Below, piece by piece: positions 1,792 to 37,531 of a stretch of DNA of 37,557 nt (within the stretch, counting starts at the first letter, position 1; every line of letters begins with the position of its first letter). The position numbers were made by a program, and so were the translations under genes. Source of the DNA: Bacteroidales bacterium (lineage in GTDB: Bacteria; Bacteroidota; Bacteroidia; Bacteroidales; WCHB1-69). Under the pieces are notes generated by a model. That model saw only the letters and a list, made by a program, of their open reading frames with translations. It was not told the DNA's origin and did no database searches. Where the stretch lies: contig JAITVP010000056.1 in assembly GCA_031285725.1 (NCBI GenBank), positions 1 through 37,557 on the forward strand, in the 5' to 3' direction.

Positions 1792-3060
1792 TTATTCCAA
1801 ACGAGTCCGTTGGTACCACTTTTCTTGTAAGATGAAATTGAAGGATATTTTGAGATAATCCTGCAAAATCAGATCGTAGGAAGTGGTTCCCATCCGCCCG
1901 TATTCAAAAACGATGTTGATAGTGGAGTTGGTGTTGAACGTTTGGAGCGGAATCCCGATTCCCAAGGAGATATTATACTCTGATAACACTTTCTCGTTGA
2001 GGGTTAGATAACCGGTGGAGTGCTTGAATCCGGCGCGGTATCTCAACTTCTTGAAAAACTTGGGCGATGCGGGATCTGCGCAGTATTGCAAACCGATAGA
2101 GGTTATCCAATTGTTGGAGAGGGAGTCGCTTTTCCCCATGCTTTCAAATTTCTTCCAATTTTGCCACGTCACATCCGCTCCGATAAGCCAAACATTTTTG
2201 AATGAATAAGATAGACCGGCTCCGATGGATTGTGGCAACTTCATCGTCCCTTTCACAGCTGCCGTACTGACAATGGTGTCCAAGGTATAGGAAGCATCGT
2301 ATTCTCCCGTGTAGTTTCCGATCATCAAGTCTTGCTTCACTCCGATATAGGCGGAATTTTCATATACCAATCCGAAACCCAGCTTGTGATTTTCCTTGAG
2401 CGGGAGGAAATATTGAAGACCTGCGGAGAGGTACAAACCGTCCACTTTGTCGCGTTGATCTATTCTCGTGTTAAAAAAATAATTCTCGTTATATTCGGCA
2501 TAGCGGGTATCGTGGAGCGTGCCCCACAAGTAGGATAGATTCAGCCCGATAGAGAGATTTCTCGTCAGTCGGAAAGCGTTTCCCCAGTACACTTGGTTCA
2601 GTCCGCCATCGCCTTCGTAGCGGTAGCTATAGCCTTCGTGGCCCGTATCATTGATTTTGTAACCTACATCGCTGAACGGCAACACACCGAGACTGGTGCG
2701 CCAGAACTTCGCCACTGAAAATCCAATGGTTAGATAATTGAACCGAGCCAGCGTGTTTTTTTGATTCATATCCGTGTTTTTCAAAGAGATAGAAGATGTT
2801 GAAAACGCAACATCAGCGATAAAAGAGAGCGAATCGAATGCGATGTAAGACGCCGGATTTTTATAGTTTACAAAACGGTTGCTTTGGATGGCATAGGAAG
2901 TTCCACCCATAGCACTGAGCGATGCGTTGGTGGTGTTACTCAAAATACCAATCCCAAAACCCGAGTAAGGTGAACTGATCCCCGTTTGTGCGTTTCCGAT
3001 GATGTGGATTCCCATCAGGATGATTAACGTAACGACCAGGATATTAAATTTTTTCAGCAT
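1792..3060 (-). CDS. Outer-membrane beta-barrel protein, function unknown
   Basis: 422 residues: signal peptide (hydrophobic stretch to about residue 24, ending GNAQ), then SSPYSGFGIGIL, a start typical of Bacteroidota outer-membrane barrels related to the FadL/OmpP1 style. The rest alternates polar and hydrophobic residues with many aromatics at strand ends (for example YLTIGFSVAKFWRTSLGV, LRYRAGFKHSTGYLT), as expected of transmembrane beta strands, and the final segment (DYLKISFNFILQEKWYQ) could be a C-terminal strand. The start overlaps the end of coaX by 17 bp, so the two are translationally linked. In Bacteroidales this barrel commonly sits between coaX and the TPR/lptC genes, which hints at a role in outer-membrane or LPS maintenance. 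The substrate, if any, cannot be told. Confidence 0.75.
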   Translation of the reverse strand: MLKKFNILVVTLIILMGIHIIGNAQTGISSPYSGFGIGILSNTTNASLSAMGGTSYAIQSNRFVNYKNPASYIAFDSLSFIADVAFSTSSISLKNTDMNQKNTLARFNYLTIGFSVAKFWRTSLGVLPFSDVGYKINDTGHEGYSYRYEGDGGLNQVYWGNAFRLTRNLSIGLNLSYLWGTLHDTRYAEYNENYFFNTRIDQRDKVDGLYLSAGLQYFLPLKENHKLGFGLVYENSAYIGVKQDLMIGNYTGEYDASYTLDTIVSTAAVKGTMKLPQSIGAGLSYSFKNVWLIGADVTWQNWKKFESMGKSDSLSNNWITSIGLQYCADPASPKFFKKLRYRAGFKHSTGYLTLNEKVLSEYNISLGIGIPLQTFNTNSTINIVFEYGRMGTTSYDLILQDYLKISFNFILQEKWYQRTRLE

Positions 3061-15049: not shown

Positions 15050-15448
15050 ATGGATATTATCAAAATCCTCTTTCCCATCGTTGCGGCCTTGTTCTATTTT
15101 TATCTCACCAGTAGGAAAAAGAAGAATGAGGAATCCCCGCCTCCTATTTTTGAATACGATGACGAGTACGAAGAACAGTGTCGGGAAAACCCATCGGGAA
15201 AGGCTGTTTCTGCTGATTTTTTTGAAGAAAAGCACACGATTCCTCCTAAAAAAGGAGAATTTGTGAGTTATGATGAACTCGGTCAAGAGAAGTGGGAAGA
15301 AGAAAACTCCCGAATGAAAATAGAAGAACGCATGGCATATTCTTTTGATAATGAGGAAGAAAACGAGTTGGTGATTTCAACCGACATTGAAAATATACGG
15401 CAAGGGATCATTTATGCGGAAATTCTGAAAATACCTTATAAACAATAA
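15050..15448 (+). CDS. Small membrane-anchored acidic protein, unknown function
   Basis: 132 residues. An N-terminal hydrophobic helix (IIKILFPIVAALFYFYLT, about 3-20) followed by RKKK suggests a single-pass inner-membrane anchor with the C-terminus in the cytoplasm. The middle is strongly acidic (FEYDDEYEEQ, KWEEENSRMKIEE, DNEEENE) and probably flexible. The last residues (IRQGIIYAEILKIPYK) form a motif I recall from short conserved Bacteroidales proteins ending '...IYSEIL...PY', which may be a docking helix. No known function. The dedicated promoter and the AT-rich gap after it suggest a single-gene transcript. Confidence 0.65.
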   Translation: MDIIKILFPIVAALFYFYLTSRKKKNEESPPPIFEYDDEYEEQCRENPSGKAVSADFFEEKHTIPPKKGEFVSYDELGQEKWEEENSRMKIEERMAYSFDNEEENELVISTDIENIRQGIIYAEILKIPYKQ

Positions 15449-15561: not shown

Positions 15562-18500
15562 ATGGCTATGATTAAAAAATTACTCTTATCAATTGGAGTG
15601 TTCCTTTGTTGCATAGGTTTTGTCTACCCACAGGCTATGATCAAGGGTGTGATTTCAGACAACGAAGGGAATGCGTTAGGAATAGCGCAAGGACAAGTTT
15701 TCCTAATTCAAGAAGGTGTCACGATTCGGGACGTGTTCACGGATGGCAACGGGGCATACCAATTTCCAAATCTACAATCAGGGACATACGATGTTAGGGC
15801 AGTTCATCTTGTTTCTGGAAAAGATCAAACCGTTGCGGGTATCAGGGTAAATCCTGACGCTATTGTGACGGAGGACATTAAAATTAACTTATCTTCGGAT
15901 GCCACCGTGTTACAGTCGGTTACGATTACCCACAGAGCTCCGATTATTGATCCGAATTCTACTGTTGCGGCCACAACCATTGACGGGAAGCAATTACAGA
16001 AATCTCCAGGTCGTGATTTGACCAAGGCACTGGCTTCTGCTGATGGAGTGAGTTCTGTGGATGGTGACATCAAGTCGGTGCGTGGTAACCGTTCAGACGG
16101 TCAAGTGGTAATTATCGACGGAGTGCGGGTGCGTGGTAGCGCATCCGTGGCGATGCAATCCATGGATGCGGCGCAGTTGATTCAAGGAGGGATTCCTGCC
16201 GAGTACGGCGATGGTACCAGTTTCCAGGTTTACAGTACCCGCGGTGTGCCGAAAAACTTCGCCTCTAGCGTTGAGTTCCGTGGTTCCGTAGACGGATACA
16301 ATAACTTCTTGGGTGCGGTTTCCGTTTCCGGTCCTATCGTGCGCAGCGACAGTAACAAGAAAGCCCGTATCGGTTTCATGTTGTCGGGCGAAGGTTACTT
16401 TAACCAAGATAATAGGCCAATGCGCGGCGGCACATGGAGAGCCACCGACGAAACCATTCAAAGTTTGAGGGAAACCCCCCTGCAATACAGTTTGACCGAT
16501 CTCGGTGCCTCCTCCTCTCCGGCAAATTATTTGTTGGAAGACGCTTTTGAGAAAAAAAGGGTAAGACAAAATGCTGAAAATTGGGGATACATCGTGCAAG
16601 GTAAAATCGACATCCAACCCATAAAAAGCACGGATGTGGTAAAAGCAAACAGCCTTAGACTCAGTTTGAACGGATCGTATGATTATGGGAAAGGTAAAAA
16701 CTGGAGTTTGGCGAATTCAATGTTCAATGTGGCCAACAACTCGGTGTATGACAACTCAACGTTGCGCTTGTTTGCTAGAGTGAATCACATGGTGGTGAAT
16801 AGTACCGATGAAAAAAAACTCTTGAAAAACTTAACCTATGACATCAATGTAAGCTACACGAAATACAATTACTCTACTTATGATAATAACTTTAAAGACA
16901 ACCTCTTCGCATACGGACATATTGGTAAATTCACGACAAGCTTAATGGATAGGTACCAATTGAGTTCATTTACAGATACCAATGGAATAGAATATGATGA
17001 TGTATGGGTAATGAATAGAAGAAATGATCCCTATTTTGTGGCTTTCACTCCGGGAGAATATAATCCGGATTTGGCGCAATACAACCGGATGCTTTTGGAT
17101 AATTTTGGACCGGAAACGGTAGAGGAATATTTCGGAATTCCCTACAATAAAGTTGCGTATCAACAATTTGGAGGTCTACTCAATGGGGAATCGCCGAGTA
17201 CGCTTTACAGTATGTATTATCTGCCAGGAATTCGCTCCAGCGGGTATCAAAAATCCGAAATAACCGCTTGGGGGGCGAAAGCGAGCCTGTCTATGAACTT
17301 GGGAAACCATGAAATTAAGTTGGGTTTTGAATTTGATCGACCCACAGAAAGAGGATATAGCATCTCGGCAGCCCCTCTGTGGACATTGATGAGAGGTCTT
17401 GTCAATACCCATTTTGCAGAACTTGATTTTGCGAATTATTCTTTCGTAGGAGAAGACTCGATAAGTTTCGGACTGCAAAACAACCTGGACGCTCAAAGTA
17501 CGTTTGATCGTAAACTGAGAGAAAAACTGGGTTATGATCCCAATGGAACCGACTGGATTGATGTGGACAACTTGGATCCCTCAACATTTGATGTGTCCAT
17601 GTTGTCGGCGGAAGACCTTTTGGTCGGTACAACCGCTACCGGTGGTAGCATGATACAATATTATGGATATGATTATACGGGAAAAAACAAGTATAACAAG
17701 AAAACCGACATTACCGATTTCTTCAACGCGAAGGATGCGAACGGACAAAGAACTTACAATATAGGTGCTTACGAGCCGGTTTACATGGCGATGTATTTGC
17801 AGGACAGGTTCTCTATCAGAACGTTGGTGTTTAACGTGGGTGTCCGTATCGACCGCTTCGATGCGAACCAATCCGTATTGAGAGACCCCTATTTGTTCAG
17901 ACCGGCTCACACGGTGGGATCCATCAAGGAAGATTTCGATGTGTCAAGCAACCTGTTTGTGGCCAATGCCCAAGATGATTGGGTAGTGTATGTGAATCAA
18001 CGTGACGAGATGTTGAACTTGGACGAATCCAACATCGTTGGGTATCGTAGCGGGGATACATGGTATGATGCGAATGGGCAAGAAGTGACCGACCCGGACG
18101 CATTATTAGGAGCCAATGGCGGGCCGGCTTTGGTGAGCGCTATTGATAACACTCTGATCTCCAAAGTGGATGAAAAAGCATTCATGGATTATGAAACACA
18201 ATGGTCCATTATGCCCCGTCTCTCATTCTCTTTCCCCGTTTCTACCAAATCCCGTTTCACGGCACACTATAATATTATCACCAGTCGTCCCACCAACTTG
18301 CGGTTGGAGCCGATTAGCTATCTGTTTGTTGAAAAATATGGCAAAAACCAAAACAATGTCATCAACAATCCTAATTTGAAATCTCAAAAAAGTATCGACT
18401 ATGAAGTGGGATTCGCACAAGCATTAGGCGATAACGCTGCGATCAATATTACGGCTTACTATTCTGAAAAACGCAATATGATCCAGTCGTATCGCTACAC

Positions 18501-19305
18501 ACAAGCATATCCGAGCACGTACTATTCGTATGCCAATATGGACTTCGGTACTGTGCAGGGTTTATCTTTAAGCTATGTCATGAGAGAGATAAAAAACATT
18601 TCATTGCGCGCAGGCTATACTCTCCAGTTTGCTAAAGGTACCGGTTCGACCGCTGGTTCCAACTTGGCGATCATCCAATCCGGTCAGCCTAACTTGAGAA
18701 CTCTGACTAATTTGGAATTTGACCAACGGCACAGATTGAACATGAGCGTGTCTTACACGTCACCGTCAGGGCAAGAATACGACGGACCCAAAAGCGTGAA
18801 GAAATTGAGCGACTCGACCAAAAAGGAAATCAGATGGTTCGAAGGTTTTGGCGTATCCTTGGTGTTCTCTGCGGCTTCAGGATTGCCATATAGCAAATCC
18901 AGCGTGGCCTATTCCGGAATTGTCAGCGGCCTGGGATCCTCTCGCCTCTCCGGAACCATCAATGGTTCACACAGACCTTGGACATACCAATGCGACTTGC
19001 GGATCGACAGAACCTTTAAATTGGGTGGAAAAACCAAAGACGACGGTAAAAAAAGAAAAACCACCGACTTGATGGTGTATGTTGATGTGACCAATCTCTT
19101 TAACTTCAAAAATGTGTTGTCGGTATATACATATACTGGAAATGCCGATGATGACGGTTATTTGACTGCATCCGAATACGAACAACAAATCAAATCACAA
19201 CTTTCCGTGGAATCTTACAAATGGTATTATGGAATGAGAGTTAAAAATCCTTACAATTACAGCGCACCAACGAGAGTTAGTTTAGGTTTCATGTTTTTAT
19301 TTTAA
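15562..19305 (+). CDS. TonB-dependent receptor-like outer-membrane protein with carboxypeptidase-like regulatory domain
   Basis: 1247 residues. Signal peptide to about residue 24 (GFVYPQ), then a carboxypeptidase-regulatory-like beta sandwich (about 27-112; MIKGVISDNEGNALG, YQFPNLQSGTYDVRAVH), a plug domain (about 120-240; VIIDGVRVRGSASVAMQSM and GGIPAEYGDGTS), and a long 22-strand-type barrel ending in Phe (RVSLGFMFLF). This is the layout of Bacteroidota TonB-linked barrels, but it is not a SusC (no SusD-like gene follows). The next two genes encode a giant T9SS cargo and a PorV-like barrel, so it may belong to a surface-display unit rather than nutrient uptake. Two in-frame starts (15562, 15568) precede the signal peptide; the first is listed. 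Confidence 0.87.
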   Translation: MAMIKKLLLSIGVFLCCIGFVYPQAMIKGVISDNEGNALGIAQGQVFLIQEGVTIRDVFTDGNGAYQFPNLQSGTYDVRAVHLVSGKDQTVAGIRVNPDAIVTEDIKINLSSDATVLQSVTITHRAPIIDPNSTVAATTIDGKQLQKSPGRDLTKALASADGVSSVDGDIKSVRGNRSDGQVVIIDGVRVRGSASVAMQSMDAAQLIQGGIPAEYGDGTSFQVYSTRGVPKNFASSVEFRGSVDGYNNFLGAVSVSGPIVRSDSNKKARIGFMLSGEGYFNQDNRPMRGGTWRATDETIQSLRETPLQYSLTDLGASSSPANYLLEDAFEKKRVRQNAENWGYIVQGKIDIQPIKSTDVVKANSLRLSLNGSYDYGKGKNWSLANSMFNVANNSVYDNSTLRLFARVNHMVVNSTDEKKLLKNLTYDINVSYTKYNYSTYDNNFKDNLFAYGHIGKFTTSLMDRYQLSSFTDTNGIEYDDVWVMNRRNDPYFVAFTPGEYNPDLAQYNRMLLDNFGPETVEEYFGIPYNKVAYQQFGGLLNGESPSTLYSMYYLPGIRSSGYQKSEITAWGAKASLSMNLGNHEIKLGFEFDRPTERGYSISAAPLWTLMRGLVNTHFAELDFANYSFVGEDSISFGLQNNLDAQSTFDRKLREKLGYDPNGTDWIDVDNLDPSTFDVSMLSAEDLLVGTTATGGSMIQYYGYDYTGKNKYNKKTDITDFFNAKDANGQRTYNIGAYEPVYMAMYLQDRFSIRTLVFNVGVRIDRFDANQSVLRDPYLFRPAHTVGSIKEDFDVSSNLFVANAQDDWVVYVNQRDEMLNLDESNIVGYRSGDTWYDANGQEVTDPDALLGANGGPALVSAIDNTLISKVDEKAFMDYETQWSIMPRLSFSFPVSTKSRFTAHYNIITSRPTNLRLEPISYLFVEKYGKNQNNVINNPNLKSQKSIDYEVGFAQALGDNAAINITAYYSEKRNMIQSYRYTQAYPSTYYSYANMDFGTVQGLSLSYVMREIKNISLRAGYTLQFAKGTGSTAGSNLAIIQSGQPNLRTLTNLEFDQRHRLNMSVSYTSPSGQEYDGPKSVKKLSDSTKKEIRWFEGFGVSLVFSAASGLPYSKSSVAYSGIVSGLGSSRLSGTINGSHRPWTYQCDLRIDRTFKLGGKTKDDGKKRKTTDLMVYVDVTNLFNFKNVLSVYTYTGNADDDGYLTASEYEQQIKSQLSVESYKWYYGMRVKNPYNYSAPTRVSLGFMFLF

Positions 19306-19325
19306 TCAAGGAAAAACAAAAAGAT

Positions 19326-22300
19326 ATGAGAAATATAAGTAAAATAGTTTTTTTAGTGGTCACACTTGCAGTTTTTGGTATTAGCCAACTGCATGCTGAA
19401 AAAAGTAGATATGTGATCCCCAAGGCGGCTCAACCGCGTTCAATCGGAACCTGTTTGCCTGCCTCAAACTCCAATGAATTAACAATTAATAACGTTAGAG
19501 CCTATTTGGAGACCAACGGTACCATGTGGTTTATCGAGACCGCGGAATATGAAGTTCCGAAAGGCTCCGGAAAGACCTCCATGTTCTGTGCAGCGTTGTG
19601 GATCGGTGGACGCGATGTGAACCAACAGTTGAAATTGGCTGCGGTTCGTTTCCGCCAAAACGGGGATGACTTTTGGACTGGTCCGCTCTCTACCATAGAC
19701 GCTACGATTTCACAACAAACCTGTATCGAATACGACAGATTCTTTAAGATCACCCGGGCTGAAGTGGAAGCGCATATCGCCAACTGGGAACGCCCTGATT
19801 ATACCATGCCGTCGATTATTCGGAATTGGCCGGCTCATGGTGACGTGTCTTTAGGACAATCTATGTTCTTGGCACCTTACTTTGATGGAAATGGGAATAA
19901 AAAATATGAGCCGGATCTCGGAGATTATCCTTATTACGATTTGGAAAACGAATTGTGTCCGTGGACAGCGGAGAATAAAGAGCTGGCTATTGCCGGACAA
20001 CTCCCCAAAACTCCCGAAGAATCAGCAGGAATTTCAACAGGGATGGTCTATGCCGATCATGTGTTGAAAGGGGATGAAACATTATTCTGGGTATTTAACG
20101 ACAAGGGTAACACACATACCGAAACCGGCGGTGAACCCATCGGATTGGAAATCCGCGGACAGGCGTTCGCTTTCGCTACCAATGACGAGCTGAACAACAT
20201 GACGTTCTATTCTTACGAGATCATCAACCGTTCCACGTATGAATTAACTAATACCTATTTTTCCCAATGGGTTGACCCTGATTTAGGATATTCGAAAGAT
20301 GATTATGTGGGTTGCGATGTTAGCAGGGGATTAGGGTATTGCTTCAACGGAAAAGATGTTGACGGACAAGGGGAAATCTTTGCCTATGGTTCACAGCCTC
20401 CGGCAGTTGGCGTGGACTTCTTTCAAGGACCTTACATTGATCCCGAACCCGAAAACATGTACGACAGACCGAAATTTAACATCGACTCCGTGTCTTATCC
20501 GGGATATTGTGAAAAATATGTGAATCATGAATATAATCAAATGTCAATCAATGGGGTGAACTTCGGCGATGGTATTCCCAACAATGAACGTTTTGGGATG
20601 AGACGTTTCGTGTATCACAACAATGACAATTCCGTTGTGGGGGATCCAAGTGTGGCTTATGAATACTACAATATGTTGCAAGCTATTTGGAAAGATAATA
20701 CGAGAATGCGTTACGGAGCAAACGGCCATCCGAGTAATGGAGCTAATGGCCCTGAGTGTGATTTCATGTTTCCGGGATTGACCGACCCATGTAACTGGGG
20801 AACGAAAGGGATTGACCCTAATCCCTTACAATACAGTGAAGATGGTTGGACCGAACCCGGTGTGGGCAATGCGCCGGAAGACCGGCGTTTCATGCAGTCC
20901 GCAGGACCTTTCACTTTGAAAGCCGGAGCGGTTAACTATATCACCGTGGGTATTCCATGGGCAAGAGCTTCCTCCGGTGGTGCTTGGGCATCTGTGGAAT
21001 TGCTGAAAACAGCCGACGACAAATGCCAAGCGTTGTTTGAAAACTGCTTCAAAGTACTTGACGGTCCCGATGCACCGGATGTGACCGTTCGCGAATTGGA
21101 AAATCAATTGATTCTTTACCTAAGCAATGATGATCCGTTAAGCAATAACCACAATGAAGGGTATAATGAAAATGACAATCAAATTCTGGCAGAACGGGAA
21201 ATCATTACAGAAGTGGAAATTCAAGATACCAACTGGATTACAGTGGGTGCGGTTGACACTTTTATAGTTGAAACCAAAACGGTGAAACAAATCACAACGG
21301 TAGACAATGATAGAACATACCGTTTCGAAGGGTATCAGATCTATCAATTGAAAAACAAAGACGTGAGCGTGACCGATTTGAACAACGCCGACTTGGCGCG
21401 TTTGGTTCGTCAATGTGACATTGAAAATTATAAAGAAAATGGTTCGGGTATCGCTCGATTGGTGAATTGGACTTACGATGATGTCGCAGGTACTTCCGTG
21501 GCGAAACCCATGGTGGATGGTGCGAATGCGGGCATTTCCCACTCGTTTCCTATTACCGAGGATGCGTTTGCTACAGGTAGTAATAGGATTTTGGTAAATC
21601 ATAAAGTGTATTATTTTATGGTGATCGCTTATGCTCACAATGAATATTTTCCTTTTTCCTTGGATAATGGTGCTGAAGGATTGACTGGACAAAAAACTCC
21701 TTATCTGGCAGGTAGAAAGAATATCAAAGTCTATTCGGGCATTCCCCATTCACCCGCTCCGCAATCGGAAGGAACAATTCTGAACGCTCAATATGGCACC
21801 CAACCCATGATCACCCGGATCGAAGGGCAGGGGAACGGTGGATTTTTCCTGGATTTGGTTGATGAAGATCGTGAAAAAATCTTGAAAGAAAATACAGTTC
21901 AACAGATCACCTATAAAAACAACTATGGCCCGTTGAACATTAAAGTGATTGACCCGTTGCAAGTGAAACCGTTCGACTATGAAATCAAATTCGTAGAATT
22001 AGGCGCAAAGGATGTTACTGACTCAACCTATTGGGTGATGACAATTGTGAACGCTACAGATGAAGAGATCATTGCCGCAGGTGCTTATACCGAGGATGCA
22101 CATGGAGTTAAAACAGCTATCAGGGAATATAGATCCGCTGTGCCGATCTCTCAGAAAAACGAGCAGTTGATTCTTAGCTTAGGTATCTCCATCTCTATTT
22201 TGGATTACGGTTTTCAAGTTCACCAGAGCGAAATTGCAGATTGGGTGAACAACAATTCCTCATGGACCTATGCGAACAAAGCAAGATATGCGCAAGTGGA

Positions 22301-24050
22301 CTTTTTAGGAAGTTCAATCACTTATGCGGATGAATCCAAACCGTGGTTTGCCGGTGTGCCGGATAGCGAAGGGAACAATCAAAGCAACTGGATTCGCTCG
22401 GGACTGCAAACCGCTGGTGCTTGGCAAGCTCTTAGCAGTGCGGATCAAGGAGTGAAGGATGTCTATTCTCAATGGAAAACAGAAGATATATTCATGGTGG
22501 TGAAAGACACCAATTTGAATGCCGGTGGATGGGAATCCCGCGTGTGGAAAGATCCGGAAGGACAATTCGAAGGCGTGCTCGGTGGCACGTGGGCACCCTA
22601 TGTGTTGTCTTCCCCTTACGATGGTGGGCCTCAAGCAAAATACATTAATCCGGAAACCGATGGTGTTACGGAACCCACGCCCGCTTATTTTAATTTTAAA
22701 GACCCTTCTTCGTTTGCAGTGGGTGGCCCCGGATACAATCAAACCATGACCAATTTATATTCCGTGGACATCGTGTTAACCTCCGACAAGGATAAATGGA
22801 CACGTTGTGTCGTGTTGGAAGCGTGCGAAGACAGGACGTTGTCTGAAGGCGGCGCATTGAAACACGAACCGAGAAAAGCCCCCTCTGTGGACAAATACGG
22901 CAACACGGATATCAATAATCCTGTGGCAAGCAATGATCCGAATTCTCCAAACTACATCAGCGCTACCGGAATGGGTTGGTTCCCCGGTTATGCGGTGAAT
23001 GTGGAAACCGGTGAAAGACTAAACCTTATGTTCTCTGAAAATTCTTCCGATGGGGATAATAAAGGTAATGATATGTTGTTTAACCCCACCGGTATTTATG
23101 GTTATTTCATTGGACAGTGGAATGGAAACGATACTGTTATGCCGTTAAACCAAGTGTCATTCAATAGCCTTTATCCACCTCCGGTTAATGCTAACTATGA
23201 GCTGAAGTTGGCGTGGGGTGGAATGCACTTTGTTTTCGTTTGCAACAGTGCCGGAAACACAGCCTCTACCTACTACAAGGTCGCAAGTGCGAACAAGGAA
23301 CGCAACTATAACGATAATAACTTGACAACTTATAGCCAAGGGTATACTCATGGCGGAACGATAGCAGATGGTAAATCTTACTATGAGTGCGGTCCTTATG
23401 ACCAAGGTCAATGGTTGTTGGCGAAGTTCAATACTTTCGTTGGCGAAGGAACAGGCACAGCGAAGGTGCAAATGCAAAAAATGCAATTGTTTAACAATGT
23501 GATGTGGACTAGCATCGCCATGCCGGCGTCTGGACAGGAAGACAATTGGCTTTCCAATAATGCGATACTGAAATTGCGCGTTTCCCGTCCTTACATGAGA
23601 TACTCTTCTCGCTGGTTTGACGATCCGAATCAATCCGGTGCGGCGGGCAGCAATTCCGGATACCCGATGTACAGTTTCACCACGAGAAACATTGCGCCGA
23701 CAACACAAGCTACCTCGCAACACGATCAAATCTTGGAAGACATTAATATTGTTCCCAATCCTTACTACGGATTCTCCACCTATGAATCCACAGCATTGGA
23801 AACTTACGTGAAAATTGTTAATCTCCCCGAAAAATGTACCATCTCGATCTTCACGGTCAATGGACTTTTGGTGAGGAAAATCACCAAAGGGGATGAGGGA
23901 ACGACTCACGTTGCTTGGAATTTGAAGAACAACGCAAATGTGCCTATCGCCAGTGGTATGTATATTATCCATGTTAATGCTCCAGGAATTGGGGAACGGA
24001 CGTTGAAGTTCTTCTGTGCGATGAGACCCACCGACTTAAATGCGTTTTAA
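19326..24050 (+). CDS. Giant T9SS cargo protein (type A sorting domain)
   Basis: 1574 residues, with a signal peptide (MRNISKIVFLVVTLAVFGISQLHAE). The N-terminal region carries GSGKTSMFCAALWIGGRD and RQNGDDFWTGPL, a pattern I associate with very large Bacteroidota surface proteins, then a Ca-binding-like DGNGNKKYEPDLGDYPYYD around residues 190-205. The middle has repeated Asn/Asp-rich loops with many Tyr and Trp but no enzyme motif that I recognise. The last ~104 residues (from EDINIVPNPYYGF) form a C-terminal sorting-type sandwich: TISIFTVNGLLVRKI, then WNLKNNANVPIASGMYIIHV and GERTLKF. It continues MRPTDLNAF beyond the final strand. It should be exported by T9SS and attached to the surface. 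It starts 20 bp after the TonB-like gene. Confidence 0.82.
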   Translation: MRNISKIVFLVVTLAVFGISQLHAEKSRYVIPKAAQPRSIGTCLPASNSNELTINNVRAYLETNGTMWFIETAEYEVPKGSGKTSMFCAALWIGGRDVNQQLKLAAVRFRQNGDDFWTGPLSTIDATISQQTCIEYDRFFKITRAEVEAHIANWERPDYTMPSIIRNWPAHGDVSLGQSMFLAPYFDGNGNKKYEPDLGDYPYYDLENELCPWTAENKELAIAGQLPKTPEESAGISTGMVYADHVLKGDETLFWVFNDKGNTHTETGGEPIGLEIRGQAFAFATNDELNNMTFYSYEIINRSTYELTNTYFSQWVDPDLGYSKDDYVGCDVSRGLGYCFNGKDVDGQGEIFAYGSQPPAVGVDFFQGPYIDPEPENMYDRPKFNIDSVSYPGYCEKYVNHEYNQMSINGVNFGDGIPNNERFGMRRFVYHNNDNSVVGDPSVAYEYYNMLQAIWKDNTRMRYGANGHPSNGANGPECDFMFPGLTDPCNWGTKGIDPNPLQYSEDGWTEPGVGNAPEDRRFMQSAGPFTLKAGAVNYITVGIPWARASSGGAWASVELLKTADDKCQALFENCFKVLDGPDAPDVTVRELENQLILYLSNDDPLSNNHNEGYNENDNQILAEREIITEVEIQDTNWITVGAVDTFIVETKTVKQITTVDNDRTYRFEGYQIYQLKNKDVSVTDLNNADLARLVRQCDIENYKENGSGIARLVNWTYDDVAGTSVAKPMVDGANAGISHSFPITEDAFATGSNRILVNHKVYYFMVIAYAHNEYFPFSLDNGAEGLTGQKTPYLAGRKNIKVYSGIPHSPAPQSEGTILNAQYGTQPMITRIEGQGNGGFFLDLVDEDREKILKENTVQQITYKNNYGPLNIKVIDPLQVKPFDYEIKFVELGAKDVTDSTYWVMTIVNATDEEIIAAGAYTEDAHGVKTAIREYRSAVPISQKNEQLILSLGISISILDYGFQVHQSEIADWVNNNSSWTYANKARYAQVDFLGSSITYADESKPWFAGVPDSEGNNQSNWIRSGLQTAGAWQALSSADQGVKDVYSQWKTEDIFMVVKDTNLNAGGWESRVWKDPEGQFEGVLGGTWAPYVLSSPYDGGPQAKYINPETDGVTEPTPAYFNFKDPSSFAVGGPGYNQTMTNLYSVDIVLTSDKDKWTRCVVLEACEDRTLSEGGALKHEPRKAPSVDKYGNTDINNPVASNDPNSPNYISATGMGWFPGYAVNVETGERLNLMFSENSSDGDNKGNDMLFNPTGIYGYFIGQWNGNDTVMPLNQVSFNSLYPPPVNANYELKLAWGGMHFVFVCNSAGNTASTYYKVASANKERNYNDNNLTTYSQGYTHGGTIADGKSYYECGPYDQGQWLLAKFNTFVGEGTGTAKVQMQKMQLFNNVMWTSIAMPASGQEDNWLSNNAILKLRVSRPYMRYSSRWFDDPNQSGAAGSNSGYPMYSFTTRNIAPTTQATSQHDQILEDINIVPNPYYGFSTYESTALETYVKIVNLPEKCTISIFTVNGLLVRKITKGDEGTTHVAWNLKNNANVPIASGMYIIHVNAPGIGERTLKFFCAMRPTDLNAF

Positions 24051-24086
24051 CATTATTAATCAGAGAAATTTTAATATTAAGAAATT

Positions 24087-25283
24087 ATGAATAATACATA
24101 TAGAACATTAATAATCGTTGCCTTGGTAAGTTTCTTTGCCGCATCCACTTCCGTTTTTGCGGGGAACAGGGACCGTGCGGGGCAGGCAGGCGCACAGCAT
24201 TTGCTTATCGACCCTTGGGCAAGATCTAACGGCTGGGGATCCGCCGGTGTTTCAGAAATTACCGGTTTGGAATCCATTTACACAAATATCGCCGGCATCG
24301 CGCGTGGACAAAACACGGAATTTGGATTCTCTCACACGCAATATCTTTCCGGTTCCGATGCTGGAATTAGCATCAACTCTTTCGGTGTGGTTCAGAGGTT
24401 GGCACGGAAAATCAAAGAAGGCGATCGCGTGAAAGAAACAAAAGAACTTGGTTATATCGGAGTATCTTTGTACACTATGAGTTTTGGGGATATTAAAAGA
24501 ACCACGGTAGATCAACCCGAAGGAAACATGGGTACATTTTCGCCCACGTTGAGCTACATTGGAATCCATTATGCCTATAAGTTTAACCGCTACATCAGTG
24601 CCGGTGCCAGCGTGAAAATCGTGACTGAGTCTATCGCTGACGTGAAAGCGGGCGGCGTTGCTATTGATGCGGGCGTGCAATACGTGGCTGGTTGGATGGA
24701 AAACTTCCGGATCGGCGTGGTGTTGAAAAATATCGGATTGCCGATCAGCTACAGCGGTGATGGTCTTTCTGTGAAAGGTTTTGTTTCCAATACGAATCAC
24801 GAAATTACAATGGAGCAACGTTCAGCGGAGGCTGAAATGCCCGTGCAGTTGACTATCGGTTTGTCGTATGACTTCTTGTTCTTTGGCGGAACCGCTTACG
24901 AAGGTCTCACAAGAGACGAGCGGAAAAAAAACGAAGCCGATTTGACCCGGAAAGACGCGTCTCACCGTTTGACGTTGGCCGGATCCTTCACTGCGAACTC
25001 CTATTCTCGCGACCAATTTGTATTGGGTCTTGAATACGGGATGGGTTACAAAGAAGGTATTGGCGACATCTTCCAATTGCGTGCGGGTTATACCCTTGAA
25101 GGCGGTATGTGGGATATCGAGGCAGCTGACACTTGGTATGCTGGTCCTTGTGCTGGCGCTTCTTTCGCTATTCCTTTGGCTAAGAAAAAACAAGGCGTTC
25201 AAAAAATATTGCTTGATTACGGGTATAGATTTACTAACAAATGGAAAGGTAATCATTATATTGGCATCAAAGTAGCCATTTAA
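24087..25283 (+). CDS. PorV/PorQ-family outer-membrane barrel
   Basis: 398 residues with a signal peptide (ending STSVFAG). The mature start, GQAGAQHLLIDPWARSNGW, GSAGVSE and NIAGIARG, is the hallmark N-terminus of PorV/PorQ family FadL-like barrels of the type IX secretion machinery. The rest is beta-barrel-like (FGFSHTQYLSGSDAG, GIHYAYKFNRYISAGASVKIV, FQLRAGYTLEGGMWD) and ends KGNHYIGIKVAI. In T9SS, PorV escorts cargo from the translocon to the attachment complex and binds the C-terminal sorting domain. This copy is co-transcribed with a giant sorting-domain protein, so a dedicated shuttle for that protein is a reasonable inference. True PorV elsewhere in the genome would distinguish it as a paralog. 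Followed by a strong terminator. Confidence 0.83.
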   Translation: MNNTYRTLIIVALVSFFAASTSVFAGNRDRAGQAGAQHLLIDPWARSNGWGSAGVSEITGLESIYTNIAGIARGQNTEFGFSHTQYLSGSDAGISINSFGVVQRLARKIKEGDRVKETKELGYIGVSLYTMSFGDIKRTTVDQPEGNMGTFSPTLSYIGIHYAYKFNRYISAGASVKIVTESIADVKAGGVAIDAGVQYVAGWMENFRIGVVLKNIGLPISYSGDGLSVKGFVSNTNHEITMEQRSAEAEMPVQLTIGLSYDFLFFGGTAYEGLTRDERKKNEADLTRKDASHRLTLAGSFTANSYSRDQFVLGLEYGMGYKEGIGDIFQLRAGYTLEGGMWDIEAADTWYAGPCAGASFAIPLAKKKQGVQKILLDYGYRFTNKWKGNHYIGIKVAI

Positions 25284-25308
25284 TAGTTAAATTTCCTTAT
25301 TCATCTTA

Positions 25309-25349
25309 AATTAAGGAGGCTTTTCCAAGCCTCTTTAATTTTTGTTTTA
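25309..25349 (+). terminator. Rho-independent terminator after the T9SS trio operon
   Basis: A 14-bp stem (25309-25322 with 25327-25340, including one G-U pair) around a TTCC loop, followed by TTTTGTTTT. It lies 26 bp after the PorV-like stop and closes the operon before greA. Confidence 0.85.
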
Positions 25350-25367
25350 TATTAAAAACCATTACAC

Positions 25368-25841
25368 ATGAGCACAATAAAATATTATTCACAAGATAGT
25401 CTGGACGCTTTGAAAAAGGAATTGAATGAATTGGAAACGATTGAACGTCCCAAAATATCGGCGGCGATTGCGGAAGCGCGAGACAAAGGCGACCTCTCCG
25501 AAAATGCCGAGTATGATGCGGCTAAGGAAGCCCAAGGTTTGTTGGAATTGAAAATCGTAAAACTGAAAAACCTCGTGGCCAATGCGAGATTGCTGGACGA
25601 GTCCAAATTGGATACCTCCAAAGTCTTGATCTATTCCATCGTAAAAATTAAAAACTTGGGCAATAATGCCATGATGACTTACACGCTGGTGCCGGAATCC
25701 GAAGCGGATTTGCGGTCAGGGAAAATATCGGTTACCTCGCCCATTGGAAAAACGCTGTTGGGCAATGCGGCTGGCAACACCATCACCGTGGATGCGCCGG
25801 CCGGAAAAATGCAGTTTGAAATCATTGAAATATCCCGTTAA
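25368..25841 (+). CDS. greA: Transcription elongation factor GreA
   Basis: 157 residues, normal for GreA. The N-terminal coiled coil carries the acidic tip GDLSENAEYDAAKEAQ (Asp42 and Glu45 match the catalytic acidic pair of E. coli GreA) and the C-terminal domain contains SVTSPIGKTLLG and GNTITVDAPAGKMQFEI. It enters the RNA polymerase secondary channel and stimulates cleavage of backtracked RNA. The gene follows the terminator and leads a tight cluster: the HIT gene starts 2 bp after its stop. Confidence 0.95.
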   Translation: MSTIKYYSQDSLDALKKELNELETIERPKISAAIAEARDKGDLSENAEYDAAKEAQGLLELKIVKLKNLVANARLLDESKLDTSKVLIYSIVKIKNLGNNAMMTYTLVPESEADLRSGKISVTSPIGKTLLGNAAGNTITVDAPAGKMQFEIIEISR

Positions 25842-25843
25842 TT

Positions 25844-26248
25844 ATGAGTACTCTATTTTCGAAAATTGTAAATGGCGAAATTCCTTCCTATAAAATTGCT
25901 GAAAATAATAGATTTTACTCTTTTTTGGACATCGCCCCGCTCACCAAAGGCCACGCCTTGGTAATTCCCAAAATCGAAGTGGATTACATTTTTGATTTGG
26001 AAGATAACCTGCTCGCTGAAATGACTGTTTTTGCGAAAAAAGTGGCGCTGGCCGTCGAGAAAAACGTAGAATGCCAGCGGATCGGTGTGGCGGTATTGGG
26101 AATAGAGGTCCCCCATGCCCACATCCATCTCATCCCGATTGTACGGGGTGACGAGATCAATTTCCAACAAGAGCGAATTAATTTGTCGAAAGATGAATTT
26201 TCCGAGTTGGCAAACAAAATTTTGAATACCTTTGAGCAAAATTTATAG
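25844..26248 (+). CDS. HIT family nucleotide-binding protein
   Basis: 134 residues. FSKIVNGEIPSYKIAE at the N-terminus and the histidine triad HAHIHLIP near residues 91-98 place it in the Hint branch of the HIT family, which hydrolyses nucleoside phosphoramidates or adenylylated substrates. Middle DIAPLTKGHALVIPK is typical. It begins 2 bp after greA, a frequent pairing in Bacteroidota, so it is likely co-transcribed; the physiological substrate is not known. Confidence 0.93.
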   Translation: MSTLFSKIVNGEIPSYKIAENNRFYSFLDIAPLTKGHALVIPKIEVDYIFDLEDNLLAEMTVFAKKVALAVEKNVECQRIGVAVLGIEVPHAHIHLIPIVRGDEINFQQERINLSKDEFSELANKILNTFEQNL

Positions 26249-34863: not shown

Positions 34864-37439
34864 TCACCTCACCACCGTCACTTCCCCTTTTACAGTGTGC
34901 CGTTTTCCGAAATGGTCCCGGTAGTGAATGATGTACACGAACATTGCGCCGTTGAGGGTATGCTTCCCGTTGCCGGTGCCGTTCCAGCCGCTGTCGGGGT
35001 TTTCAGTGTAGAAGATTAATGTTCCCCAGCGGTCGTAGATCGACATTTTGAATTCCGTCATATCTATCGTCACAAATTCGGGTTTGAAGAGGTCGTTCAA
35101 ACCATCGCCGTTGGGAGAGAAAGCGCTGGGGACAAAAAACGAGGTTTTGTCTTTGATATCCAAGGTCAAGGTCGTGCTATCTTCGCAGTCATTATCATCT
35201 CTCACATAAAGAGAGACTTCGTATTGCCCAATCTCATCATACCGATGCTCGGGATATTGGGTTGACGAACCGTTACCATCACCAAAATTCCACCGCCAAT
35301 AGGTCGCATTTTGGGAACAATCGACGAAACGCAACATGTCGTTGATGAAATTGGGCGGAGACGGAGATACCGTAATACATGCTTTAATATCCTGTATATT
35401 ATTGATAGTGAACGGGAAATCGATAGGGCATATTCCATCATCTACCGAAATCGTGTAATTTCCCGGCCGGAGATTGAAAGCGGTGCGATCTGTGTAATTT
35501 TCGATACCGTTCCAATAGACATCATAATGATCCGATGAGGTGCTGATGTTGATTTCAATGGAGCCGTTATCTTTATTGCATGTCGCATGCGTGATTTTGA
35601 CAATAGAGACCATGATTGGGTCTGGAATTGTGATTTCCACAATGCCGATTTCCAAGGTGTTACATTGATCGTGTACACTGACGATGACATCCGTCTCCTC
35701 GGTAATGATCGTTCCAACGGCTGGCGTTTGCGAGAAGGTGATCTCGTCGCTGCTCACGCAATTGTCATACGCCGCCGTATCGAACAGTTCCGTAATATCA
35801 GGGATAGAGTATTGTCCGTTTTGGCAAATCGCTTCTGCGGAATAGACAGTCGTTTCAATGGTAGGCGGTTCAATATCTTGTATCAAAATGGTGATCGTGT
35901 CCCGTTTCATGCAGTTATTCGCATCGGTGACTGCCAGATAGACTTCGACGAGGGAGTCACAGAGGTAAGCGGCAGAGATATTGGTCTGGGCGGAGGCAGG
36001 GTCGCCGGCAATAGCTGCGGCGTTACCATTCCACTGGTAAGAATAGGGTGGCGTTCCGCTCGTCACTTGTGCGGCGATGGTATGATTGATCTCGAAATGA
36101 CAAAAAGGATCAGGGAATTGTGTGACCACGGTTTCGACCGACGGATAGATGTGGACATACACACCGACGGCGGAACCGCACCCGTTGGCAGAGCCGACTA
36201 CTTGGAAATAGGTGGACGTGGTGGGTGCCACCAAAATCGTCGAGGTGTCGATCTCTGTGGTGTTCCAACGGTAGGAATCTGCACCGGAAGCCACCAAGCG
36301 GGTGGTGTCGTTGGCGCAAAGCGTGTCGCGGTAAGCGTAAACGCTAACATTGGGAAGGCTGTTTACTACCACGGGAATGGTGGTAACAACCGTGTCGCCA
36401 TCGGCAAGGAAAAGATAGAGTGTGTAATTGCCACTGTCCGCCGGCATGGCATCGTAAATGGTCGGAGCACGTTCCGTGGAAGTGAAACCATTGGGGCCTT
36501 CCCAGTAGACGGTGGATCCACTTTCCGAATTAGCGCAATAGAGGAAAAGAATATCACCCTCGCAAACCGGACTGTTGCTGCCGGCCAAGGAGAGCACGGA
36601 ACAGTCGGTTTCCGCTGTGGTGTAGTTTGTTTCCACGGCATTGAAAGAGATGACACCGGGCACGCTCGCAAAATTTGTAATGAGCAGCAAATAAAATTCC
36701 CCTTCTTGCGCATCGGGAATAAAACACCATTCCGTGCCTGCAGAGTGATAACTACAGTCTATCATATTGTCCACGGGATATCCTCCAAAATTTCCATTGG
36801 CATGGTCTCCGTTAGTAGGTCTATGGGTTGAGGTCGATTCAGTATAAAAATCGTATCTGCCGCAACACAAGTTATTTTTAAAATCGGCAGATGTGCTAGC
36901 GGCAAAAGGTCCCCAGCAGGCAAAATCCACATCCGATTCAGAGCCGTCCGAATCCCGAAATTGTTGCAAATAAATTAGCAGATTTCCGGGTTCGCTAATA
37001 CGCATATAGTACCAAGCGGCAGGTTTATCGATATTGCCCAGACAGCCCACGGAGGATTGTCCGAAAAAAACAGTCGGGTAACCGCCGGTGCCGGAAGGAT
37101 AGCTGATTCCGTCCGGGGTGTCGTCGGTACAGAACGGGTGCAGGCTTACTCCGTCGCAAGGCGATCCCAATGCGGAGGAAACGGTAAAGCAAGGTTTGCA
37201 GCTTAGACCCGCAGCCCACCCGGAACTTACCCCTTCGCCGTTTGACGTGAAAAAGAGGGTGATCACCTGACCGGTGGTTTCTATTCTGGGGGGAAGACTA
37301 TTTCCCATGAACGTACCCAACACCGGAGAGGAGGTCGATGCGCCGTCGTAAACATACAAACAATCATAATCACTCAAAGAAAACTCATAAAATTCCAACA
37401 CTAAGGGTTGGCCATCTTCTGAGATGTAAATTTGCGTCA
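34864..37439 (-). CDS. T9SS type B (CHU_C) surface protein, second exon; gene interrupted by a group II intron
   Basis: About 857 residues lie in the window. From the intron boundary: a CUB-like domain (QPLVLEFYEFSLSDYDCLYVYDG, then FTSNGEGVSSGWAAGLSC), a Cys-rich jellyroll-like part (NIDKPAAWYYMRISEPGNLLIYLQ), Ig-like segments (PVCEGDILFLYC; DTLCANDTTRLVASGADSYRWNTT), a PKD domain (YWRWNFGDGNGSSTQYPEHRY) and the gliding motility-type sorting domain (FVPSAFSPNGDGLNDLF, YDRWGTLIFYTENPDSGWNGTGNG, VKGEVTVVR). It should be secreted by T9SS and attached to the surface. The open frame continues upstream to an ATG at 37521, but that 27-residue start lies in intron domains V and VI, so it is not the native N-terminus: the signal peptide and first part of CUB must be in an upstream exon outside the window. 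Confidence 0.8.
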
Positions 37440-37497
37440 ATCGAGTAGGAGGAAAACGAAGTAGTTTGCTTCCTACTTTCGTTTTCCGACCTCTCAC

Positions 37498-37531
37498 ACC
37501 ACCGTACGTGCCGTTCGGCATACGGCGGTTC
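37498..37531 (-). ncRNA. Group II intron domain V (catalytic hairpin)
   Basis: On the minus strand the lower stem pairs 37529-37521 with 37506-37498, including a G-U pair at 37526/37501. The expected catalytic triad is CGC (37527-37525), as in IIC-type introns, rather than the more common AGC. A two-nucleotide bulge (37508-37507) separates the short upper stem, closed by a GAAC loop rather than a GNRA loop. Total length is about 32 nt. The fold was drawn by hand, so the alternative pairing with bulge AC is also possible. Confidence 0.75.

Follow-up and report, generated by a model that had tools for sequence, protein, structure and literature searches.

Introduction

In the type IX secretion system (T9SS), PorZ is a C-terminal-domain (CTD) protein held uncleaved on PorQ, a barrel of the PorV family (PMC10202324), and the CTD of PorU likewise stays uncleaved (PMC10202324, PMC11285876). 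The CTDs of PorZ and PorU are 96 and 108 residues long, respectively, whereas cleaved CTDs have 67-88 residues, and the features that decide between release of a T9SS protein and its retention at the surface remain to be determined (PMC11285876). Here we describe three consecutive genes on a 37,557-nucleotide contig of a Bacteroidales bacterium (JAITVP010000056.1, the whole of which we call the window), which encode a TonB-type barrel (TBD), a giant secreted protein with a T9SS-type CTD (CARGO) and a PorV/PorQ-family barrel (PORV). We found that this trio is an old module in many families of Bacteroidota, and we propose, with modest confidence, that its products form a single complex at the cell surface.

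The trio resembles each of the described systems only in part. As PorZ goes with PorQ, a CTD protein here goes with a PorV-family barrel, and the predicted fold of the CARGO CTD is closest to that of PorZ; PORV, however, belongs to another subfamily than PorQ, the surface protein here is a different one and far larger, and a TonB-type barrel joins the pair. PorU and PorV, a pair also encoded in this genome, likewise have adjacent genes, one for a protein with a long CTD and the other for a barrel of the PorV family; PorU, however, acts as a sortase and PorV handles many cargos, whereas PORV seems to belong to a single one. Type B cargos also have one dedicated barrel each, a PorP/SprF protein encoded directly downstream (PMC12618676), but for the CARGO CTD a type A fold is predicted, and the barrel here is one of the PorV family. 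PorV2-PorU2 (NCBIfam names) similarly includes a PorV-family paralogue separate from PorV and PorQ, yet PorV2 forms a separate clade and is a separate gene in this genome. Finally, SusC-SusD sets a TonB-type barrel with a regulatory domain beside a large surface protein, SusD being the lid of SusC. Unlike that pair, TBD gave no match to a SusC model at E up to 1, and CARGO is of the T9SS type and showed no sign of being a lipoprotein when its signal region was read by eye. We found no published description of the trio in open-licence PMC full text (preprints were outside the scope of this search).

Results

The features discussed below are as follows.

15562-19305, + strand: TBD, 1247 amino acids (aa); barrel like that of TonB-dependent receptors, with a plug and, at the N-terminus, a carboxypeptidase-regulatory-like domain
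19326-24050, + strand: CARGO, 1574 aa, secreted; N-terminal super-β-sandwich (residues ~44-578), mostly β region, T9SS-type CTD (~1463-1574)
23712-24047, + strand: CARGO CTD; conserved C-terminal tail, motif VPNPY ... GxY ... LKFF-x3-RPTDLNAF
24087-25283, + strand: PORV, 398 aa; PorV/PorQ-family barrel, by sequence of its own subfamily
25308-25341, + strand: terminator-like hairpin that closes the trio; 15 pairs, 4-nt loop, T tail
25368-26248, + strand: greA and HIT-family genes; genomic context outside the module, in synteny with the trio within Bacteroidales

A preliminary description, made from this DNA alone, had proposed a three-gene operon, its genes spaced by 20 and 36 bp and followed by a strong terminator. 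Our reading of the open reading frames (ORFs) gave the same coordinates and gaps (20 bp between TBD and CARGO, 36 bp between CARGO and PORV, all three genes on the + strand), and a 15-pair stem with a T tail indeed follows at 25308-25341. Terminator-like sites in the window numbered 18, against 11.1 expected from shuffles, and this stem was the longest by far. The window is one contig of a 2.1-Mb assembly, and its closest named relatives are Bacteroidales metagenome bins.

We examined the gene order in three sets of relatives: a near set (41 genomes searched, cargo in 28); a set of genome contigs, in which at least 582 of 589 hits to a sequence pattern code for relatives and of which the best 80 were kept (some genomes overlap the near set); and a phylum set of 40 loci from other families with 42 cargos, picked from the better-scoring of the genomes that have the CARGO N-terminal domain (N-domain). 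The order TBD-CARGO-PORV was complete in 24 of 28 near-relative cargo stretches, in 77 of the best 80 genome-contig loci and for 38 of the 42 cargos at the 40 loci elsewhere in the phylum. All 11 incomplete trios lie at a contig or fetch edge. Contig ends cut the four in the near set and the three among the genome contigs; in the phylum set, L183 and L194 end at a contig edge, one cargo of L216 is cut at the fetch edge, and L217, besides its contig edge, has no TBD upstream on readable DNA. Conservation of the order in other genomes thus shows linkage beyond chance, and the loss of order that was to count against a dedicated unit is not what we observed. The greA gene lies downstream of complete trios in 22/24 cases in the near set and 75/77 among the genome contigs, but in only 6/38 in the phylum set, and the HIT gene that accompanies greA after the trio is common in the near set and rare further away; the trio has therefore been retained while its surroundings changed. 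Rather than the private local unit first envisaged, the trio is an old module in many families of Bacteroidota.

Some loci depart from the simple arrangement. At L216 (genome G377) two complete trios stand side by side together with an extra PORV, and the CTD tails differ between the copies. In distant lineages genes of 719-745 aa lie beside PORV (L215, L190, L196, L199, L200 and L219); the gene of L215 (3066-5225, - strand), the only one of these that was domain-scanned, encodes tetratricopeptide (TPR) repeats and multihaem-cytochrome motifs.

PORV scores as a member of the PorV/PorQ family (NF033709, 107.2 bits; cut-off 90), as the preliminary description had it. It stays below the cut-offs of the PorV equivalog NF033710 (40.8 bits; cut-off 250) and the PorQ equivalog NF033711 (53.8 bits; cut-off 220), and the PorV2 model NF052325 was not listed for it at E up to 1. 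Elsewhere in the genome are a true PorV (471 bits), whose neighbour is PorU (1199 bits), a PorQ (341 bits) and a PorV2 (487 bits), the last being a separate gene (L038) beside one taken for tgt by eye, so that PORV is a fourth PorV-family member; its identity to the other three is 19-23%. In a tree of 87 PorV-family rows, 44 trio PORVs from 31 families (the tool's family numbers) formed a single clade with 100/100 support. None of the 43 other rows fell inside this clade, and the PorV (100/100), PorQ and PorV2 (100/100) groups lay outside it. The non-trio rows represent some members only, taken from the window's own genome and 10 others, of 18 searched (for G127 the best one only), and caution is due with the long rows L285, L275, L260 and L263. 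The suggested distinction between PORV and the genome's PorV thus holds by scores and tree and extends to PorQ and PorV2, and at the sequence level PORV is a PorV-family subfamily of its own. The pairing of a PorV-family barrel with a CTD gene is nevertheless of a known kind and not unique to the trio, because other PorV-family paralogues adjoin CTD-bearing genes in some lineages (G380, G058, G223 and G098 by pattern match, with no answer for 3 of 40 loci).

The sorting domain that had been read on CARGO is marginal by sequence and clear by predicted fold. TIGR04183 scored 17.9 bits with CARGO alone and 23.8 bits with its neighbours in frame (cut-off 23), whereas AlphaFold2 modelling and fold search gave the immunoglobulin-like type A fold of T9SS CTDs. 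The top match was PorZ (5m11; Z 10.5, root-mean-square deviation (rmsd) 2.7, 91 residues, 25% identity), followed by PorU (6za2; Z 9.4, rmsd 3.0, 88 residues), and cleaved CTDs scored lower (Z of 7.4 for RemZ, 7.4 for RemA and 7.3 for NucA). At E up to 1, neither CARGO nor PORV drew a match to TIGR04131 or to the PorP/SprF models.

CARGO is conserved up to its last residues. Trio cargos have 27-31 residues after the GxY in 79/80 near and 38/42 far sequences (the other four being truncated genes), whereas 26 of 30 scored ordinary cargos of the window's own genome have 17-20 and four fall outside the pattern; the 30 were drawn from the genome's 65 type A CTD matches (62 over the cut-off, window CARGO counted in). 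CTDs of trio cargos therefore bear a tail extension of ~10 residues that is absent from ordinary cargos. The final residue is F, L, Y or I in 74/80 near and 38/38 intact far trio cargos, and mostly K, N or Q in the ordinary ones. From PNP to the end, CARGO measures 96-118 residues (median 98) in the 80 near and 96-115 (median 97) in 38 of the 42 far sequences, the remaining four having no PNP. As judged from sequence, and counted from a start point slightly unlike that in PMC11285876, the CARGO CTD is thus longer than the cleaved CTDs, as the retained ones are. As the most telling natural control, six single-gene N-domain paralogues outside the trio (L068-L073, 285-923 aa) carry ordinary type A CTDs (L068 over the Pfam cut-off), with tails of 18-20 residues after the GxY in 6/6, so the N-domain alone does not require the long tail, which accompanies the trio context. 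The CARGO CTD is distinct from the ordinary type A CTDs of its own genome.

The AlphaFold2 models of CARGO had mean predicted local distance difference test scores of 83.9 and 82.3. In these, residues ~44-578 form a super-β-sandwich as in enzymes of glycoside hydrolase (GH) families GH15, GH65, GH94 and GH116 and phosphorylases (the GH numbers of some matched entries are our presumption). The best match was dextran dextrinase (Z 18.9, 254 residues, rmsd 3.2; Foldseek E 4.6e-6, with a low TM score). In enzymes of the GH15, GH94 and GH116 type a catalytic (α/α)6 barrel follows the sandwich. That helical barrel is absent from the CARGO models, where a linker helix and then β structure follow; judging by the models, a sugar-related role of the N-domain is possible. 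No other part of the module is as conserved as the N-domain, at a mean distance of 0.54 versus 0.64-1.10 elsewhere in it (for comparison, greA 0.46 and HIT 0.63).

For TBD, the Pfam models of the TonB plug (26.4; cut-off 23.9) and TonB barrel (48.5; cut-off 27) were over their cut-offs and CarboxypepD_reg, at 32.3 bits, equalled its own (32.3), in agreement with the TonB-like barrel with a regulatory domain described earlier. A candidate TonB-box stretch, picked by eye with typical Bacteroidota TonB boxes as the yardstick, precedes the plug in most TBD rows. A SusC-type TIGRFAM model exists, and no SusC model was among the NCBIfam matches of TBD at E up to 1. A sequence search of solved structures with the three trio proteins gave nothing except a single chance antibody match (E 1).

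Of 395 genomes sampled across the phylum, 117 had the N-domain (E 1e-8), or 110 if seven matches weaker than 1e-12 are left out; this count includes N-domain paralogues and so is not a count of trios, the trio order having been read in 40 of these genomes. SprA occurred in 117/117 genomes with the N-domain, and the N-domain in 0/92 genomes lacking SprA. An earlier count of 183/395 genomes, all with SprA, came from whole-cargo alignment and was withdrawn, since a check of 20 of these genomes placed nearly all of their matches on the CTD alone. Many of the matches in these 20 were in frames of 1270-1570 aa, probably PorU, and the N-domain region was hit, among the matches listed, only in G041. 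In the window's own genome SprA is matched weakly (E 3.6e-33), and PorU, PorV, PorQ and PorV2 are all present. In line with the preliminary description, no T9SS core gene appeared in the NCBIfam scan of 20 window proteins (part of the window's ORFs).

Pairwise distances were compared over 71 loci. Distances of the CARGO body track TBD best (r 0.89-0.91), and those of the CTD track PORV (r 0.82) ahead of TBD (0.78), greA (0.68) and HIT (0.59), although PORV tracks the C-terminal half of CARGO (r 0.88) even better than the CTD. These correlations, which are only suggestive, would fit a CTD seated on PORV and a CARGO body seated on TBD.

Discussion

The reading that we favour, by a modest degree of belief, is that the trio makes one outer-membrane surface complex, in which CARGO is exported by T9SS, kept uncleaved on PORV and works with the TonB-type barrel. 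CARGO would pass the inner membrane via Sec, fold, and then exit through the T9SS translocon by means of its CTD, as the observed co-occurrence with T9SS suggests. The co-encoded PORV would bind the CTD, which, unlike that of ordinary type A cargo, would stay attached; PORV may be carrier, permanent anchor or both, as PorQ is for PorZ and PorV for PorU. Such retention is suggested by the fold of the CTD and the conservation of its tail, by the distinctness of the PORV subfamily and by how strictly the genes are linked. In the least certain step, the N-terminal part of CARGO might sit over TBD and aid ligand uptake or passage, somewhat like SusD on SusC. The high conservation, and neighbours that are housekeeping genes, suggest some general part in the envelope more than the handling of a niche nutrient. 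Of the dedicated shuttle envisaged in the preliminary description, the module's own conserved barrel stands, but its nearest analogues are the retained pairs PorU-PorV and PorZ-PorQ rather than a new kind of carrier for cargo that is set free. More tentatively, and as an idea we do not yet lean towards, the trio may represent a third T9SS route, next to those of type A cargo via general PorV and of type B cargo via PorP/SprF, in which an ancient PorV subfamily binds a long-tailed type A-like CTD and holds a single giant client permanently with a TonB-powered barrel; if so, T9SS would here assemble a machine in the outer membrane instead of setting an effector free.

Several points weigh against a retained complex. 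K1561 near the CARGO end is nearly invariant (a Lys at the fixed distance occurs in 62/79 near and 38/38 far sequences, a count that misses shifted Lys), and type A CTDs in general share a Lys at this place, which leaves room for ordinary PorV to act on the CARGO CTD. According to PMC11285876, the CTD of the Tannerella forsythia protease mirolase is also closer to PorZ and PorU than to RgpB, which makes the CARGO CTD fold support rather than proof; no feature given there yet separates cleaved from uncleaved CTDs; and C-terminal extensions of CTDs are tolerated, so that the tail by itself proves nothing. The spread is patchy, with 186 of 303 SprA genomes lacking an N-domain match, the association of SprA and N-domain (Fisher p 6e-17) ignores kinship, and the distance correlations are uncorrected for length noise and shared descent.

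Were CARGO an ordinary type A cargo, PorV would export it, PorU would cut off its CTD and it would be released or joined to lipopolysaccharide, while PORV would be an unrelated FadL-type barrel, for example a small-molecule channel, sharing the operon. The type A fold and Lys of the CTD and the presence of both PorV and PorU in the genome agree with this, as does the statement in PMC12618676 that all type A CTDs are handled by PorV. We nonetheless think it unlikely, for the CTD tail of the trio is unlike that of the scored ordinary cargos, N-domain paralogues without a trio do bear ordinary CTDs, and PORV belongs to the PorV/PorQ family and adjoins CARGO in almost every intact locus. It is quite conceivable, if not what we expect, that the trio is a TonB-dependent uptake system whose ligand-catching lid arrives via T9SS instead of being a SusD-type lipoprotein, with PORV only as an anchor. 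The TBD plug and barrel scores, the plausible TonB-box stretch seen by eye in most TBD rows, the GH15/GH94/GH116-type sandwich of the N-domain and the best match of TBD distances to the CARGO body all accord with uptake. However, an N-domain nearly as conserved as greA (0.54 versus 0.46) would be out of the ordinary in a nutrient receptor, the models listed for TBD include none for SusC, and no sugar-enzyme gene is among the identified conserved neighbours.

A FadL-family barrel with large extracellular subunits is the design of the Bacteroidota β-barrel assembly machinery (BAM; PMC12578637), and this, together with the housekeeping neighbourhood and high conservation, would suit an envelope-building machine in which a CARGO chamber over TBD and PORV helps to fold or place surface proteins, like the BAM dome. 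Given that bamG is a separate gene in the window and that the patchy distribution speaks against an essential role, we hold this to be quite improbable. Selfish or chance linkage without shared function is scarcely credible: although operons can be co-inherited, the same ordered trio recurs in dozens of families while its neighbours vary (greA in 6/38 versus 75/77), and L216 has tandem copies. The module also points to a conserved, unnamed T9SS and TonB complex in many uncultured Bacteroidota. For the question of release or retention, the trio offers natural pairs of a long-tailed CTD and its own barrel, and N-domain paralogues with ordinary CTDs.

Other features of the window

Directly upstream of the trio, 15050-15448 (+ strand) encodes a 132-aa protein with a hydrophobic N-terminus and no Pfam match, which is also found beside some relatives' trios. 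Despite the lack of a core T9SS gene among the 20 scanned proteins, the window also encodes a type B CTD protein (34867-37521, - strand; 885 aa; TIGR04131, 51.5 bits, cut-off 35). This protein looks orphan, without an adjacent PorP/SprF; downstream of it lies an opposite-strand gene resembling carboxynorspermidine synthase, below cut-off. The bamG gene, at 1795-3060 (- strand; NF053685, 350.5 bits, cut-off 250), encodes the subunit of the Bacteroidota BAM complex that belongs to the FadL family, and is followed by a gene for a TPR-repeat protein of 483 aa (290-1738, - strand).

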